Shown here piece by piece: positions 1 to 5,790 of a DNA stretch of 5,790 bases. A program made the position numbers and the translations under genes. This stretch comes from an uncultured Flavobacteriales bacterium. Its GTDB lineage: Bacteria > Bacteroidota > Bacteroidia > Flavobacteriales > Crocinitomicaceae. Position 1 is the stretch's first letter. Each line of letters opens with the position of its first letter. Where the stretch lies: contig CAMLDR010000236.1 in assembly GCA_946478775.1 (NCBI GenBank), forward strand, positions 1 through 5,790. Direction: 5' to 3'. Below the pieces are notes generated by a model. It ran no database searches. It had not been told where the DNA came from and saw only the letters and a list, made by a program, of their open reading frames with translations.

Positions 1-1
1 G

Positions 2-304
2 CGCATCAAGGAATTGTGGCAGAAAAAAGACTATGGTCAGTACGGAGTGAACGGGAAATTGCCTGTAAACTTCCTTTCCAATAACGATATCACAGGTGGT
101 AACTCCGGTTCCCCGGTGATCAACGCAAACGGAGAATTGATCGGAACGGCATTTGACGGTAACTGGGAAGCAATGTCCGGTGACATCTACTTCGAGCCGA
201 ACATTCAGCGCACGATCTCTTTGGACGTTCGCTACACGCTTTGGTTGATCGACAAGTGCTACGGCGCAAGTAATTTGGTTAATGAAATGAAGTTGGTTAA
301 ATAA
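2..304 (+). CDS. S46 family serine peptidase (dipeptidyl-peptidase 7-like), C-terminal fragment
   Basis: This is the last 100 residues of a gene whose start lies outside the window; the reading frame is open from base 2. It carries the S46 signature TGGNSGSPV with the nucleophilic serine at bases 104-106, then [18 protein letters not shown] and the conserved tail ending near LVNEMKLV. Full-length S46 enzymes are roughly 700 residues, so about one seventh is present. Family members are periplasmic or surface exopeptidases that release dipeptides from the N-terminus of oligopeptides and feed amino-acid catabolism in Bacteroidota. In Porphyromonas enzymes the residue 18 positions after the catalytic serine sets P1 preference: Gly in DPP7 (hydrophobic P1), Arg in DPP11 (Asp/Glu P1). 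Here it is Gly (bases 158-160), so DPP7-like specificity is inferred. G+C is near 48%, consistent with a resident gene. The family call is firm; the exact substrate is not. Confidence 0.95.
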
Positions 305-342
305 CAAAGTAGTCAGCCGAGGTTGACACTTCATTACTTTGT
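304..342 (+). repeat. Stem-loop just after the peptidase stop codon
   Basis: An inverted repeat begins at the last base of the stop codon. ACAAAGTAGT (304-313) pairs with ATTACTTTGT (333-342) over 10 bp, including one G-U pair. A second inverted repeat lies inside it, GTCAGC (312-317) with GTTGAC (322-327), also including a G-U pair and with a short loop. The two stems compete for bases 312-313. No T-run follows it, so it is not itself a typical intrinsic terminator. It may stabilise the 3' end of the peptidase mRNA. Its function is not known. Confidence 0.45.
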
Positions 343-361
343 AATCAATAAATAATAATAG

Positions 362-394
362 AAAAGCCGCTGGTCTTGGGACTGGCGGCTTTTT
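362..394 (+). terminator. Intrinsic terminator of the S46 peptidase gene, possibly bidirectional
   Basis: The left arm at 362-375 (AAAAGCCGCTGGTC) pairs along its full 14 bp with the right arm at 380-393 (GACTGGCGGCTTTT). Two pairs are G-U, and the loop is the four bases TTGG. The right arm runs into five Ts and a further T-rich stretch, which is the classic factor-independent form. On the minus strand the same hairpin is followed by TTTTC and a TATTATTATT stretch. It could therefore also stop transcripts of the STAND gene, which converges on it from the other side and ends 41 bases away. Confidence 0.88.
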
Positions 395-434
395 GTTTGT
401 GATTTTTAAAGTGGCGTTGCTTGCTATTTAGAGA

Positions 435-3395
435 TTACATTTTTGTCATTTGGATAGCCCCAAATTTTGTATTGTTAATTTTTCCAAATCCAAATTTCAC
501 TAAGTCTCCGACTTTTAATTGTCCAAAAGTTTGATCTATTAAACTTGCTTCTCGAAAATAAATTCTACCTTGTATTTTGTCTGAATCATATTTTATGTAG
601 CCATATTTTGATTGGTCATTATGCAATTTTATAATTGTACCGTCGTATCCAGTTTCTTGAGGTTCAAGATTAATAATATCTAATTGTATATTAACAGTTT
701 TATTCTTTTTAATCGGTTCATGAATAGATTTTGGTCTGCTTTGTTGGAAATGATTCCTATATCCATTTAGACGATCCATTTTTCTTTTGAACCTAAAGTG
801 AATCTGTTCAGGGAATTTAGATAATCCGAACTCACAGATTTCGATTGCTACTGATTTGTTATGAATTCGATAACAAGTATCAATTAAACTTTCCAATGCT
901 AATGTTATATCGTTAAGCTCTTCAGAAGATAAATCTTTAGAAATGTCAATTTGTTTTAATTGAGCAAAGAGCATATGACCATACTTATTGTAAACTCTTT
1001 TAAGTTGTTCTTTTATTTTCTGTCTAATAGTATATTCCCTCTCAAATTTATCATTCCAAAAGAAACATTCTCTCATAACTATTAAAGCAAGTAAATGTAG
1101 CTTCTGATTTTTAGTCAGATTTACGTTAAGCGATGCATATTTAGAATAATAACTTTCAAGAATTTTAATAGATTTTTCTTTGTCTAAACTCCAAGAATAG
1201 CTTGAATATCGTTTCAAAACTTCAAATTCATAATAATCATCGAAATACTCATCAAACAATTTTATTGCGGGTTCTTTTTCTCCACGATGATTGAAAAGAA
1301 AATCAGCTAAATCTAAAAGTGCCTCAAATTTTACATCATAGGAGAATTCTTTACCATGTCGCAATATTTCTCTATATTGCTGAATTGTAGTTTCTGGATT
1401 TGATTGATGACGCAAAGTTTTGACATGGGTTAGTAATGCTCTATCTGTATCAGTTGTGATGTTTGTTTTTATTCTATCATAAAAAGCTTTGGTTCCACTT
1501 CGAAAACCATCACCTCTTTTATTATATTCTTGTTTCATGATTTCAAGAATGTCTTTTGAATCAACTTTGAAGGATCCATCTTCATCAACTTCAATTAAAC
1601 GAAGCTTTACAAGTTTATCTAAGGAATTGTTGAATAAAGCTTCATCCTCATCTTTTTTATTTAGGATAAACTTTATGTGTTTAACTAAGCTTGTGAGAGA
1701 GTCTTTAGGGGTTAGTAATCCAATGACGGTGAAAATATCTTGTGCAAGTTTGTCCCCTTCCAGTTGCTTATAATTTCTTCCATATAGAAATTCATTTCTT
1801 TCAGAATGGGAGTTAACCCGCTTCATGTCATTTAGAAAATCTTCAGTAAGCTTTCCTCTTTGAACAAAGCAATTTACAAATCGAATAATTTCGATTGGTT
1901 TTCCAATTGTTATTTTATGGATTTCATTTTTAATGTTGCCTTTACTAATTTGAGATTCTACGTCCTTCAGTTGCAATTGAGTATAATTGTGTTCAAATGT
2001 CAAAACCTCATAAAGAAACTTAATCGTGTTGGATATGTCTAATTCGTTTGTTTGAATGTCATCACCGATTTTAAGGAAATTATTTCGAGTGGTAATAATT
2101 ACCTTATGGTAAACGGTATTTAGTTGTTTAATGAATAACGTAATCTTTTCTTTATCGATATCTTCAAATGTTTCATAATCATCTATTACAAGTAACATTT
2201 TGGACTTTTCATCAATGATTTTTTTAGGATCGATTGAATCTTCTGAATAAATTAGCATATTCAGTTTCTGTATTAGTTCTTCAAAACTGGAAATACGATT
2301 TTCTGAATTTATTGGAATTATTTTGCCTGTAAATTTATTGAGTTCTCTGTCTTTAGCCGAAAGAAAAATTATAAATTCAAAAGTTTTTTTTTCACTGAGA
2401 GAAAGCTCCCCACAAATTTTTTGAACAGTAGCTGTTTTACCATTTCCTCCGTGTCCCCATAATGTAATGCATACAGAAGAGCCTTTTTCTTTACCAGTTA
2501 GAAAATTATAAACTTTTTCTTTTATACTCCCTACCTCTATGTATCTTTTATAATTAGGATGAAAGACATTTATAATACAGCCATTAGGTTGTCGCTTTAA
2601 TACTCCATTATTCGCACTAAATTCAAATTCCTCCCAACATTTAGTGAAATCGTTATCTGATTTATCAATTCTATTGTATCGAATTTTTCCAAGTAATGCT
2701 TGTTGAACATTTCTAAACACATACAAACCATCTTCATTAGGTTCAATGTGAATGAATGGAGATAATCGGAAATAAGTATTGGGTTCATAAGAGGCGTATA
2801 GGTTGCCTAATTCAAATTCTGATATTTCTTTTGAACATCTCCAATTACTCCTAATATCTCCCTCGGAATCGTATATAGTACCGGTATATTCTTGTGTCGC
2901 TTCATCGAATCCTTGACAAACAATTAGATCAGTTTTCCTACTGAGTATTTGAATTCTTAAGTTCAATAGTTTTTGATACCATTCATCAAATAGTTTAGAA
3001 AAGTTGTATAGATCATCTTCAAAACTATAGCCATGACCAATTAAATCATTTCTAAGTTCAGCATAGTCTGTTAGTTCAGATTTAGTTTGTTCTTTAGATA
3101 GTTGGTTATTAATGTCAAGTTTTTGGATTAAGCTAGCAATAGTACCAATTGATGGTTTTTGAATTTCTTTTATAATATTACCTTGAAGTACAAAGTCAGT
3201 AATTCCAATTTCTTCAAAATTTTTGTTCCAATAATAAGAAAGTAACAAATAGAAAGCATATTCTACTCTAACTTGGTGATAAACACGAATTTCAGCCGTT
3301 CCTTCGAAGCGTCTAATCTTTTTTTCAATTGTATTTAATATGTAATCCATATAGGAAAATTTATTTAATCTTGTTTTTGTTCGAGACTGCTCCAC
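435..3395 (-). CDS. HEPN-STAND NTPase with helical repeats and C-terminal cold-shock-like domain (predicted defence protein)
   Basis: This encodes 986 residues, probably cytoplasmic; no signal peptide or membrane segment is seen. Domains in order are as follows. Residues about 15-150 are a helical HEPN-like domain with the Rx4-6H motif ELRNDLIGH (R115, N116, H121), the active-site pattern of HEPN RNases. Residues about 165-290 are a linker domain I do not recognise. Residues about 290-510 are a STAND P-loop core: Walker A GHGGNGKT (314-321), Walker B LLVIDD (401-406), sensor-1 VIITTR (432-437), and a GKP motif (498-500) like GLPL of NB-ARC proteins. Residues about 545-620 look like a winged helix. 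Residues about 640-870 are helical repeats, TPR-like. Residues 917-983 resemble a cold-shock OB fold (YGYIKY, then GRIYFREASL). STAND proteins switch on ligand binding and release an effector; here RNA cleavage by HEPN is inferred. The start is GTG; ATG at 3350 (residue 16), behind an A/T-rich leader, is a credible alternative. G+C is near 30% against nearly 50% in resident neighbours, which suggests acquisition. Confidence 0.85.
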   Translation of the reverse strand: MEQSRTKTRLNKFSYMDYILNTIEKKIRRFEGTAEIRVYHQVRVEYAFYLLLSYYWNKNFEEIGITDFVLQGNIIKEIQKPSIGTIASLIQKLDINNQLSKEQTKSELTDYAELRNDLIGHGYSFEDDLYNFSKLFDEWYQKLLNLRIQILSRKTDLIVCQGFDEATQEYTGTIYDSEGDIRSNWRCSKEISEFELGNLYASYEPNTYFRLSPFIHIEPNEDGLYVFRNVQQALLGKIRYNRIDKSDNDFTKCWEEFEFSANNGVLKRQPNGCIINVFHPNYKRYIEVGSIKEKVYNFLTGKEKGSSVCITLWGHGGNGKTATVQKICGELSLSEKKTFEFIIFLSAKDRELNKFTGKIIPINSENRISSFEELIQKLNMLIYSEDSIDPKKIIDEKSKMLLVIDDYETFEDIDKEKITLFIKQLNTVYHKVIITTRNNFLKIGDDIQTNELDISNTIKFLYEVLTFEHNYTQLQLKDVESQISKGNIKNEIHKITIGKPIEIIRFVNCFVQRGKLTEDFLNDMKRVNSHSERNEFLYGRNYKQLEGDKLAQDIFTVIGLLTPKDSLTSLVKHIKFILNKKDEDEALFNNSLDKLVKLRLIEVDEDGSFKVDSKDILEIMKQEYNKRGDGFRSGTKAFYDRIKTNITTDTDRALLTHVKTLRHQSNPETTIQQYREILRHGKEFSYDVKFEALLDLADFLFNHRGEKEPAIKLFDEYFDDYYEFEVLKRYSSYSWSLDKEKSIKILESYYSKYASLNVNLTKNQKLHLLALIVMRECFFWNDKFEREYTIRQKIKEQLKRVYNKYGHMLFAQLKQIDISKDLSSEELNDITLALESLIDTCYRIHNKSVAIEICEFGLSKFPEQIHFRFKRKMDRLNGYRNHFQQSRPKSIHEPIKKNKTVNIQLDIINLEPQETGYDGTIIKLHNDQSKYGYIKYDSDKIQGRIYFREASLIDQTFGQLKVGDLVKFGFGKINNTKFGAIQMTKM

Positions 3396-3553
3396 TGTTA
3401 AAGTAGTCCAACTACGATTATTTATTACCAGTAAACGATTTTAATTGTTTAAAGCTCATCAGAAAACTCGTGAATGTAGTCTCAGTAAATAGTGCTTAGC
3501 GCGTTTCGCTCCTCCAATACTACTCAAAAAAATCAAAACAAAAATCCGGAGAA
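3396..3553 (-). other. Leader region upstream of the STAND gene
   Basis: These 158 bases separate the membrane-protein stop from the STAND gene start, and both genes lie on the minus strand. The region holds a small perfect inverted repeat (GTAGT 3403-3407, ACTAC 3411-3415, three-base loop) only 7 bases before the GTG start. It also holds a G+C-rich patch at about 3491-3516 with a 4-bp hairpin (AGCG 3498-3501, CGCT 3507-3510), and a possible 13-codon reading frame at 3459-3418 on the minus strand (MSFKQLKSFTGNK). No convincing terminator for the upstream gene is present. No clear Bacteroidota promoter is present either; the best -7 element match (TAGTATTG, near 3520) lacks a properly spaced partner. 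The STAND gene may have its own promoter here or be read through from upstream. Confidence 0.3.
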
Positions 3554-4165
3554 CTAAAATTTTCTCTTTTGGGTTATAATTCTAAGCTTAAAAGGTTGAT
3601 CGGCTCTGAAGTTTCCGTTTGAATCTTGTTTAATCAAAATGACTCCTTTGTCTATCAGGAGTTTATTGCCCATGATACTACGATCTTCTCCCAAGGGATC
3701 TTTTTCACTGAGCAGGATCGTGTCGCCGCTTATGCGGTATTCGCCGTAATTAGTTGTCTCGCTAAACACAGCATAATCACTTAGTTTGTAGGTTTTGTTT
3801 TGTCTCAGGTAAAGCGTTAGACCATTGATATCGCCGTCGTAATGAGCTTGCAGGACAACCGGGCTGGATTCCCGGAGATTCAGTTGAATGCGCAGCGTGA
3901 TAACAACTACAGTGTGAATGAGGCAGACAACTATAGGAAAAAGGTATCCGCGTGTTTTGGTTTTCAGAAGCCGGATCAGGGAGTAAATAATGACTCCGAT
4001 TAAAAGCGCATGCATGAAAAAGAACCGGATGCTCAATAGAAATCCGGTAATGAAACCTTCCTCGATCTGGTAGAATGACCGGATCTCATCATCCAGCACG
4101 AAGGCTGAGATCAGGATGGAGAAGATGGTGAGGAGGATGATTGGTTTTCTGTTGGTTCGGTTCAT
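3554..4165 (-). CDS. Unrecognised membrane protein with three N-terminal helices and an extracytoplasmic beta-rich tail
   Basis: This encodes 203 residues that I cannot assign to a family. Three hydrophobic segments are visible at about residues 8-24, 38-66 and 74-93. Basic residues at the N-terminus (MNRTNRK) and between helices 2 and 3 (KTKTR), with an acidic loop between helices 1 and 2, put the N-terminus inside and the C-terminal 100 residues on the outer side of the inner membrane. That tail is polar, alternates short strands and turns (for example NYGEYRISGDTILLSEKD) and looks beta-rich. Small stress- or lipid-related sensor domains can look like this, but there is no motif to name one. 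The ATG start at 4165 follows an A/T-rich stretch. G+C is about 47%, matching the peptidase and WG-repeat genes rather than the two low-G+C modules on either side, so it is probably a resident gene. Confidence 0.75.
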   Translation of the reverse strand: MNRTNRKPIILLTIFSILISAFVLDDEIRSFYQIEEGFITGFLLSIRFFFMHALLIGVIIYSLIRLLKTKTRGYLFPIVVCLIHTVVVITLRIQLNLRESSPVVLQAHYDGDINGLTLYLRQNKTYKLSDYAVFSETTNYGEYRISGDTILLSEKDPLGEDRSIMGNKLLIDKGVILIKQDSNGNFRADQPFKLRIITQKRKF

Positions 4166-4209
4166 GGTTTCCGGGATAGAAGAAAGACTATTTCAATAAT
4201 AGCTTGCTT

Positions 4210-4362
4210 TTATTCAGGTTTAATTTTCACGATTTTATTGTCCCGCAAAACAACCAATTCACTGTTTTTAGACTTCTTAAATTCTAAAAGTTTTTCATAC
4301 ACTTTTTCAAGCCCTTTCAGAATTTTAATTTTTTCTTCTTTTTGAATTTCACTTGTTTTCAT
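4210..4362 (-). CDS. 50-residue partner of the zeta-like toxin, candidate antitoxin
   Basis: This is a short gene of 50 codons from ATG at 4362-4360 to TAA at 4212-4210. The N-terminal half is a highly charged helix rich in Lys and Glu (QKEEKIKILKGLEKVYEKL). It is followed by FKKSKNSELVVLRDNKIVKIKPE, which reads as a turn plus a small beta hairpin. Its start lies 14 bases inside the end of the zeta-like gene, in another frame, which points to translational coupling and fixed stoichiometry. Small proteins of this shape, ending in a pattern like LVVxRxxKIVxIxP, sit beside COG4185 zeta-like ATPases in other bacteria as far as I recall, which supports an antitoxin role. The G+C is low, as in its partner. 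The membrane-protein gene starts 44 bases further on. That it is a real gene is likely; the antitoxin function is inferred from context. Confidence 0.72.
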   Translation of the reverse strand: MKTSEIQKEEKIKILKGLEKVYEKLLEFKKSKNSELVVLRDNKIVKIKPE

Positions 4363-4933
4363 AATGATTTTTTAAAAGGTTGAACTTCTCTTGGTTCAGA
4401 ATATTCAGTACTCCATCAATTTGTTTATCGGCTAAAAGTTCGTGTATCCCTTCGGAATTATCAAAAATTAGTGCGCCGTCAACAATTGGAAGATAAATAT
4501 CAAACAAATTTAGAATTCCTCTGGTGTATCTTCTTTCAATAACTTCCGGTTCAATGTTGTGACCGCCTTCGAATACTCTTGTTTTTACACGTTCTTTAGC
4601 CAGATCACTATTTTGTAACCAAAAGAACAATAATGTTACACGATACCCTTTTTTCTTCGCCTCAATTATTTTGCTTTTATAACTTTTCGTTGATAATGTT
4701 GTTTCAAATGCGAAATTTTCGTTCGCAGAAAGTAATTCATTGATTCTGTTTAACATGATTCGCCCTGATTCAAAGGATACTTTTTCAGGTTGAAAAGGTG
4801 ATAGTCCTTTTGCGATTTCATCCGCGTTGACAAATTCTTTACAATCTAAAATATCAGGCAAGATCGTGAATGAGGCGGTAGTTTTACCAGCTCCGTTGCA
4901 ACCTGCTATTATGTAAAGCTTTTTCTCATCCAC
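4349..4933 (-). CDS. Zeta-toxin-like P-loop kinase (COG4185-type ATPase)
   Basis: This encodes 194 residues from GTG at 4933. An in-frame GTG at 4969 would add 12 residues. I prefer 4933 because it gives MDEKKLYIIAGCNGAGKTT, with the first strand close to the N-terminus as in relatives, and because the extra 12 codons lie over two palindromes. Motifs from this start are: Walker A GCNGAGKTT at residues 11-19; NADEIAKGLSPF near 36-47 with an Asp (D38) in the position of the zeta catalytic base; FETTLS near 76-81; and an Arg-rich lid RVKTRVFEGGHNIEPEVIERRYTRG ending near residue 139. Zeta toxins phosphorylate UDP-N-acetylglucosamine and block cell-wall synthesis. COG4185 relatives share the fold, but their substrate is less certain. 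The gene is followed by an overlapping small partner gene. G+C is near 28-30%, unlike the neighbouring resident genes. The family call is strong; toxicity is inferred. Confidence 0.88.
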   Translation of the reverse strand: MDEKKLYIIAGCNGAGKTTASFTILPDILDCKEFVNADEIAKGLSPFQPEKVSFESGRIMLNRINELLSANENFAFETTLSTKSYKSKIIEAKKKGYRVTLLFFWLQNSDLAKERVKTRVFEGGHNIEPEVIERRYTRGILNLFDIYLPIVDGALIFDNSEGIHELLADKQIDGVLNILNQEKFNLLKNHYENK

Positions 4934-4935
4934 AA

Positions 4936-4949
4936 TTGTAAATTTACAA
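4936..4949. promoter_or_regulatory. Perfect 14-bp palindrome at the start of the zeta-like gene, candidate operator
   Basis: TTGTAAATTTACAA is its own reverse complement and ends two bases before the preferred GTG start at 4933. On the minus strand a TATAAT hexamer (4955-4950) abuts it, so a transcript from that element would start inside the palindrome. A symmetric site overlapping the start of a toxin-antitoxin cassette is the usual place for autoregulation by the toxin-antitoxin complex. No DNA-binding motif is evident in either protein, so the regulator is unknown. A chance palindrome in A/T-rich DNA cannot be excluded. Confidence 0.45.
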
Positions 4950-4960
4950 ATTATATTTAC

Positions 4961-4977
4961 TCTCACCACTGGTGAGA
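4961..4977. promoter_or_regulatory. 17-bp odd palindrome upstream of the zeta-like cassette
   Basis: TCTCACCACTGGTGAGA has 8-bp perfect arms around one central base (C4969). It is richer in G+C than its surroundings and sits just upstream of the TATAAT hexamer at 4955-4950, where a repressor would cover a promoter. The alternative GTG start at 4969 falls exactly at its centre, which argues against that start. There is no T-run after it on either strand, so it is not a typical terminator for the WG-repeat gene upstream. Its sequence is unrelated to the 14-bp palindrome 11 bases away. Confidence 0.45.
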
Positions 4978-5035
4978 TTTCTGGAAGAAGAATAGGAAAA
5001 AACGTCGTTACCCAAATTGGTTTACAAGAAAGATT

Positions 5036-5790
5036 TTACTTCATCTTTTGATCCCGCACAGTCAAACAAATCAGCTTGTATCCCTTATCCGTGCGCAGGA
5101 ATTCATAATGGTTCTGCGTAAAATCTTTTTTGGTAGTGTGAGAAATAATCACCGACATGGTTGGATAGATCCAGTCCTTCGACTCGCCGCAATTGGTGAA
5201 GTAGTGTTCGAATTCCGATCCACCGAACATAAAGGGGTTTAATCCATCGATCGAAACAAAGTAATCGGTTTTCGGGTCTAAGATTTCCGATAATCCGCTT
5301 TTCAGAAGAGTGAAATTGTCTGAAATGAGTTTTTTACTGACCGTTTTTCCCCAACCGTCTTCGGTTTCCCAGGTAATGGTGTCGTAAGAAGCGCTAACTA
5401 ATTTTTGGATCGTTAAGTCATTCAATAACTCTTTTCGAAGCCAGTGTTCAAATTCTTTTTCAAAGACGATAAAGGAGTAATAACTTCCGTCTTTTGCCAA
5501 TAAAGAGATGCGTGCAGTGTCCGGGTGCACAGATTTGGTCTTTTGAAGCGAGAAGAGATTCAATGCTTCACGGGAAGTGAATTTTTCAACGAGGAGGTTG
5601 TTCGCCGTATCGATCAGGACTTCCTGTCCGCCGGTCCAGCTAAAATGATTGCATCCCGACTCGCTGTGCCTGTTCCAAAGTTTTTTCTCAGCTCCTTTCA
5701 GTCCGATGAGCATTCCGTTCTGTACACGAGTCAGTTCGTTGTAATCCGCAGGAACGACAATTTTCCCTGTTCGGTCGAATAGACCCACTT
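5036..5790 (-). CDS. WG-repeat-containing protein, C-terminal part
   Basis: The frame is open through the window edge (its first two bases belong to a split codon), so the true start lies beyond base 5790. The first visible residues, VGLFDRTGKIVVPADYNELTRVQNGMLIGLKG, fit one WG (KWG) repeat: a strand, an [F/I]D-x-x-GK turn, then V-P-x-x-Y. Proteins with such repeats usually carry several in tandem, so more are expected outside the window. The next segment (about residues 55-75) may be a degenerate repeat. The remaining 150 residues show no repeat and no motif I recognise; they contain the acidic and aromatic stretch TWETEDGWGKTVSKK. WG repeats are thought to form beta-rich binding surfaces, and no enzymatic role is indicated. 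G+C is near 50%, so it is probably a resident gene. It ends 102 bases before the zeta-like start. Confidence 0.8.
   Translation of the reverse strand, partial: VGLFDRTGKIVVPADYNELTRVQNGMLIGLKGAEKKLWNRHSESGCNHFSWTGGQEVLIDTANNLLVEKFTSREALNLFSLQKTKSVHPDTARISLLAKDGSYYSFIVFEKEFEHWLRKELLNDLTIQKLVSASYDTITWETEDGWGKTVSKKLISDNFTLLKSGLSEILDPKTDYFVSIDGLNPFMFGGSEFEHYFTNCGESKDWIYPTMSVIISHTTKKDFTQNHYEFLRTDKGYKLICLTVRDQKMK

Follow-up and report, generated by a model that had tools for sequence, protein, structure and literature searches.

The closest described relatives, by domain order, of the protein considered here come from the 2013 survey of Anantharaman et al. (PMC3710099), in which the succession of a HEPN domain, a STAND-type ATPase, tetratricopeptide repeats (TPRs) and an S1 or cold-shock-like OB fold in a single chain was described as a prediction. 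The portion of that survey considered here names Npun_F6454, MED222_16016, Desac_1927 and the B. cereus protein gi 229028907 for this order, and lists the HEPN–STAND–TPR–S1 proteins as mostly active. No experimental study of the HEPN–STAND–TPR–OB kind was found in the literature searched, which comprised neither of the two main papers on nucleotide-binding, leucine-rich-repeat (NLR) proteins, and Npun_F6454, MED222_16016 and Desac_1927 are mentioned there in PMC3710099 only. A gene for a protein of this kind occupies the minus strand of a 5,790-nucleotide stretch of DNA from an uncultured bacterium of the Crocinitomicaceae (Flavobacteriales; assembly GCA_946478775.1, contig CAMLDR010000236.1, positions 1 to 5,790), hereafter ‘the window’. 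We favour, with some reserve, the view that it encodes a one-gene, NLR-like abortive-infection protein in which a predicted HEPN ribonuclease (RNase) is held under a STAND switch.

Comparison with the described systems shows that the HEPN–STAND–TPR–OB architecture recurs here, the HEPN assignment being likely and the cold-shock match falling below its curated cut-off. The window protein shares with the proteins of the 2013 survey both the domain order and the predicted logic, i.e., an RNase under a STAND switch combined with a C-terminal RNA-binding OB fold (PMC3710099, as far as considered), and the relatives found here likewise bear S1 domains (68 of the 120 listed homologues of a search from the Paenibacillus relative L040) or cold-shock-like tails. 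It is likely that the window protein belongs to the same sequence family as the proteins named there; that portion of the survey names no Bacteroidota group with cold-shock tails. The suspicion of an unprecedented domain order, voiced in an earlier note made from the sequence alone, has to be given up, since the order was already predicted in 2013. Avs/AVAST and bNACHT proteins also combine an N-terminal effector, a central STAND nucleoside triphosphatase (NTPase) and C-terminal repeats in a single chain, and the fold comparison of the window protein brought up an Avs5 filament chain (9nc9) as well. In the accounts consulted, however, their effectors are of the TIR, SIR2 or Mrr-type nuclease kind, whereas a HEPN-like effector and an added tail are present here. 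No family of the PADLOC defence models matched the window protein at E up to 1, and it did not come out as a member of Avs/AVAST as modelled there. CED-4, Apaf-1 and the plant NLR resistosomes likewise count among the nearest known systems, since the nucleotide-driven switch resembles that of animal and plant immune receptors. CoCoNuT systems join cold-shock-like OB folds to an NTPase and in some types contain HEPN nucleases, but, in the part of their description considered, they rely on a McrB-type GTPase rather than STAND and are encoded in multi-gene operons (PMC11090510).

The features of the gene are as follows, with residue numbers given here and throughout in the 986-residue frame that starts at GTG.

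435..3350, minus strand: predicted HEPN–beta–NB-ARC–winged-helix–TPR–OB protein, 971 residues from the probable ATG at 3350 (986 from the GTG at 3395)
2940..3350, minus strand: N-terminal helical domain, HEPN-like, residues 16-152 (structure models and the topology rules of PMC3710099)
3033..3053, minus strand: Rx5H motif R115-N-D-L-I-G-H121, where helix 110-119 ends and the next loop begins
1518..2528, minus strand: NB-ARC NTPase with helical and winged-helix parts, residues 290-626
2433..2456, minus strand: Walker A, GHGGNGKT, residues 314-321 (with K320), by conservation
2178..2195, minus strand: Walker B, LLVIDD, residues 401-406, by conservation
2085..2093, minus strand: TTR, residues 435-437, by conservation
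1896..1904, minus strand: GKP, residues 498-500, by conservation, P500 being variable
768..1511, minus strand: TPR-like superhelix, the presumed sensor, residues 629-876
438..659, minus strand: five-stranded cold-shock-like tail, presumably an OB barrel, residues 913-986 (model, PF00313 matches and motifs)

The open reading frame (ORF) extends over 435-3395 when read from GTG. Since residues 1-15 are only weakly common to the homologues while M16 is present in about 94% of them, and since blastn similarity to L001, the closest relative fetched (75% protein identity), spans 438-3351 only, the alignments suggest that the true start is probably the ATG at 3350. Every other blastn match had an E-value of 0.24 or worse.

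The central part of the protein carries the hallmarks of a STAND/NB-ARC switch, that is, Walker A, Walker B, TTR, which we take to be of the sensor-1 type, GKP, presumably the GxP motif of NB-ARC, and a winged helix following the NTPase. PF00931 (NB-ARC) is matched at 30.7 bits, above its curated cut-off of 23.5, while NACHT reaches 24 bits, short of the 26.7 required by its own cut-off. In the fold comparison, model residues 267-651 align to CED-4 and resistosome chains, and the fold matches include, next to 9nc9, the MalT-system chain 8bob. The STAND switch with TPR-like helices that the earlier note had read from the sequence is thereby borne out by Pfam, model and fold comparison alike; R115, H121 and the four NTPase motifs stand exactly where it had placed them, and its helical repeats and cold-shock-like tail reappear in the model as helices 629-876 and five strands at 913-985.

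R115, N116, H121, K320, D405, D406, T435, T436, R437, G498 and P500 are invariant in an alignment of 121 sequences. In a larger set of 236, position 115 is R in 233/233 and position 121 is H in 234/234 of the sequences having it (three shortened records account for the exceptions), and K320, D405, D406, R437 and G498 are present in all 236, whereas P500 is replaced by A or V in 36, so that the GxP proline is not universal. N116 is N in 232 of these sequences, D in one and a gap in three, and is I in the genome locus L030; the position of E45 holds E or D in 232, with four gaps. The 50 genome loci fetched gave 48 gene models, of which two are fragments while the other 46 all have R115, H121, K320, D405, D406 and R437, and R115 and H121 are retained even in N-termini with as little as 26% identity. 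Judged by their conservation in both sets, the motifs exceed what is expected by chance.

The N-terminal domain comprises, in the model, helices 18-29, 36-66, 68-79, 83-93, 110-119 and 129-144. According to the part of the 2013 survey considered, HEPN domains exhibit an Rx4-6H motif with a polar residue after R, located at the end of helix 3 or in the loop to helix 4, an acidic residue in helix 2, and an insert between helices 2 and 3 (PMC3710099). R115-N116-x4-H121 agrees with the sequence rule, and the models, read by eye, appear to follow the topology as well, with the motif at a helix end, E45 within helix 36-66, and helices 68-93 as the extra segment. Motif, helix topology and survey thus make it likely that the domain is HEPN.

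At the C-terminus, a low-confidence linker (880-902) precedes the tail, for which the model suggests five strands at 913-985 with aromatic RNP-type motifs, as in cold-shock domains. PF00313 matches were obtained, at E up to 0.1, for 16 of the 17 tails scanned (the window tail and those of 16 of the 34 close relatives), the best having E 3.4e-6; the window tail itself yields E 9.6e-4 and 19.4 bits, below the curated cut-off of 27, and the relatives P0036-P0038 are annotated with PF00313 in the database. The tails share the motifs KYGYI (930-934) and IYFR (945-948). Among the 37 rows that cover these positions, an aromatic residue stands at 931 in 35, at 933 in 37 and at 946 in 36, and our alignment suggests that these positions correspond to the sites of the RNA-binding aromatics of cold-shock proteins. 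A profile search of the PDB with the tails, however, ranks dUTPases first (E 0.0025), followed by the cold-shock domain of UNR (0.23) and bacterial cold-shock and Lin28 chains (0.4-0.86). Hence, the tail would be a divergent cold-shock member, and its assignment draws on Pfam, motifs and model; the family-wide, if weak, Pfam matches support what the earlier note had proposed for this region.

The distribution of tails separates the family into groups. Starting from the window protein, a search with an E-value limit of 1e-5 yielded 407 homologues, and among the best 120, which were listed, 34 are close (59-86% identity), four lie at 38-41% (three with PF00313) and 82 at 32-38%. Of the 39 rows P0001-P0039, all but P0034 and P0035, which end early, possess a tail of at least 75 residues (37 rows), whereas no more than 51 residues follow the TPRs in 81 of the 82 relatives P0040-P0121, the exception being P0086 with 102. 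The second search, from L040, yielded 496 homologues, the best 120 of which were listed; at least 75 residues follow the TPRs in 104 of its 115 new sequences, 36 of them without an S1 call. In a tree of 53 cores, from which the tails were excluded, one branch splits off the 13 cold-shock-tailed rows and another the 21 long-tailed rows, each with 100/100 support, where the two sets come from the two different searches and the long-tailed rows are labelled by tail length (15 with an S1 call, 6 without). Only two changes of tail label are required on this tree, compared with a mean of 24.8 after shuffling. By eye, the tail-less relatives L002, L005, L010, L014 and L018 often end in a short ELGxKLKxAMxKK-like stretch, a trace of which (FGIKLKSAV) precedes the cold-shock-like domain of L001 but is not clearly found in the window protein. 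A 1185-residue relative (L032:8001-11558) apparently has two OB-like repeats after its TPRs, again by eye.

The gene is distributed patchily, being found in 3 of 395 Bacteroidota genomes with the seed genome counted. The cold-shock-tailed form occurs in L001 only among the 50 genome loci, and in none of 35 other genomes of the order of L001. No phage records were matched, a Runella plasmid was (37.5%), and three loci lie on viral contigs; the sequence of one of them, L056, recurs unchanged within the Klebsiella sp. locus L039, so that it is not an independent viral locus. A 14.6-kb part of L039 is identical to a contig in a viral collection, and a search of E. coli with the L039 gene gave no match.

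Signs of mobility are evident in composition and surroundings. The gene has a GC content of 29.7%, while, among its neighbours in the window, the end of an S46 peptidase gene, a 203-residue ORF and a WG-repeat ORF have 43-46% and the zeta-type kinase 34.0%, and it lies below its flanks in 43 of the 43 loci with enough flank, by a mean of 12.6 points. The flanks of L001 are unrelated to those of the window. The three nearest genes per side were collected from 45 loci (229 genes, analysed in halves of 114 and 115), along with 143 control genes taken from 8-kb stretches placed arbitrarily in 20 of the genomes concerned. Seven phage integrases are among the 114 first-half neighbours, although 385 matches in 41 whole genomes would lead one to expect 0.49 for the entire set of 229 (Poisson P 9e-7); the family listing of the second half contains no integrase, and the Pfam control shows none among families listed with at least two members, a listing that a single one could escape. 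Three N6 methylases were found among the 115 second-half neighbours, where the expectation for the entire set of 229, based on 133 matches, is 0.17 (P 7e-4), and Pfam identified a Thoeris-type TIR in 2 of the 114. Phage antitermination and NinG matches probably belong to L039. Since no neighbour family exceeds 7 of 114 or 4 of 115 genes, the gene appears to be a one-gene module without a fixed partner.

By analogy with known STAND proteins, the NB-ARC/winged-helix core would most likely keep the chain closed at rest, until the TPR superhelix, perhaps together with the tail, detects a sign of infection. ADP would be exchanged for ATP, and chains would assemble via the NB-ARC core, as those of CED-4 or plant resistosomes do, thereby pairing the N-terminal HEPN domains such that their Rx5H sites form a working RNase, whose cleavage of RNA would arrest growth or kill the cell. 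The cold-shock-like tail might bind single-stranded RNA, and either keep substrate near the RNase or help gate activation. The domain anatomy, the invariance of the catalytic-type residues, the fold likeness of the core, the defence-rich surroundings and the signs of mobility are observed here, whereas RNase action, sensing, assembly and the part played by the tail are deduced. If active, such a protein would unite the RNase (HEPN) and NLR-type (STAND) branches of bacterial immunity within a single polypeptide that also contains its own RNA-binding part.

The tail may, alternatively, have a more prominent part in the same switch: phage-made or damaged RNA bound by the OB fold, and not a protein ligand of the TPRs, would release the RNase. 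STAND proteins, e.g., Avs, do usually sense via their C-terminal part, and two separate groups of the family have tails of different kinds, cold-shock-like in one and long and mostly S1 in the other, at the same C-terminal position. Cold-shock domains usually bind without specificity, however, and 81 of the 82 relatives P0040-P0121 keep R115, H121 and the switch with at most a short stretch past the TPRs, which suggests that the tail is dispensable for the basic mechanism; we consider the tail an unlikely sensor. A bolder proposal builds on the observation that the RNA-binding barrel at this position is cold-shock-like in one group of the family and S1 in another: the tail would be an exchangeable RNA sensor, and these proteins would be bacterial NLRs triggered by RNA and responding with RNA cleavage in one chain. 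We regard this as rather unlikely, too. The cold-shock-tailed, S1-tailed and tail-less groups constitute a natural set in which to ask whether the tail serves as a sensor, as a recruiter of substrate or solely as an anchor.

The preferred assignment of an RNase under a STAND switch has to be weighed against two further explanations, and a number of observations count against it. The N-terminal domain could be a helical adaptor or assembly domain devoid of RNase activity, in which R115 and H121 are structural. Neither profile nor fold comparison with the PDB identified HEPN: Foldseek of the N-terminal model gave no PDB match with E below 0.001, a PDB profile search gave a single chance-level match (E 0.26), and a Pfam scan of 47 N-termini found no family in more than one member, with one weak Csm6-HEPN match (E 0.059). 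Comparison by hhalign with the alignments of PF18731, PF13643 and PF05168 did not rise above decoys, with HEPN-HEPN positive controls that were themselves weak (best Probab 30). Against Swt1-type HEPN (28 of 31 loci used, three dropped for length) Probab was 0.74; the best alignment pairs RN with RN and H with H across a one-residue gap, yet its score was surpassed by 2 of 20 column shuffles, as well as by two segments from the TPR region of the family itself. Neither hhalign comparison included L064, and the earlier one lost many alignment rows. On the other hand, R-N-x4-H at a helix end together with a conserved upstream acidic residue fits the published HEPN rules, and the 2013 survey, as far as considered, counts HEPN–STAND–TPR–S1 proteins as mostly active (PMC3710099), so that a mere adaptor appears quite improbable. 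Of the HEPN domain proposed in the earlier note, motif and topology thus hold, while profile-profile and fold searches did not retrieve it. The protein might also be a STAND-type, MalT-like housekeeping or stress regulator that uses RNA binding and has no role in defence. STANDs can be regulators, and the fold comparison brought up 8bob and ORC/Cdc6 chains; in fact, ORC/Cdc6 and clamp loaders match the core with similar Z, so that the match demonstrates an AAA+/STAND fold and not immunity. The window flanks are, moreover, mostly ordinary genes, with a zeta-type kinase alone being conflict-like. We nevertheless deem a regulator very improbable in view of the patchy distribution, the unrelated flanks of L001, the AT-richness, and the defence and integrase genes in excess over controls. 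The PADLOC models matched (E up to 1e-10), including type I and IIG restriction-modification, AbiEii and SoFic, number 176 for 114 neighbours and 296 for 115, compared with 19 for the 143 controls, counts that are inflated by redundant models (one type I gene matches many), while mad3, which with 4 of 115 genes is the commonest PADLOC match of the second half, is matched in the control too (2 of 143); the contrast is therefore strong but coarse. The abortive-infection role suggested earlier hence gains from neighbourhood, AT-richness and patchiness, with an effector whose HEPN nature is likely and for which homology searches were not significant.

The other genes of the window are the following.

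2-304, plus strand: gene for an S46 peptidase of the dipeptidyl-peptidase-7 type, 3' end only (PF10459, E 4e-43), a housekeeping-type flank
4210-4362, minus strand: charged 50-residue ORF (about 27% GC) that follows the zeta-type kinase and overlaps its end by 14 bases
4349-4969, minus strand: zeta-toxin-type P-loop kinase (PF06414, E 6.4e-10; 34.0% GC)
5036-5788, minus strand: ORF weakly matching the WG repeat (E 6.8e-4), truncated by the window end

The AT-rich zeta-type kinase and the 50-residue ORF, located near the STAND gene, resemble a small toxin-antitoxin-like pair.
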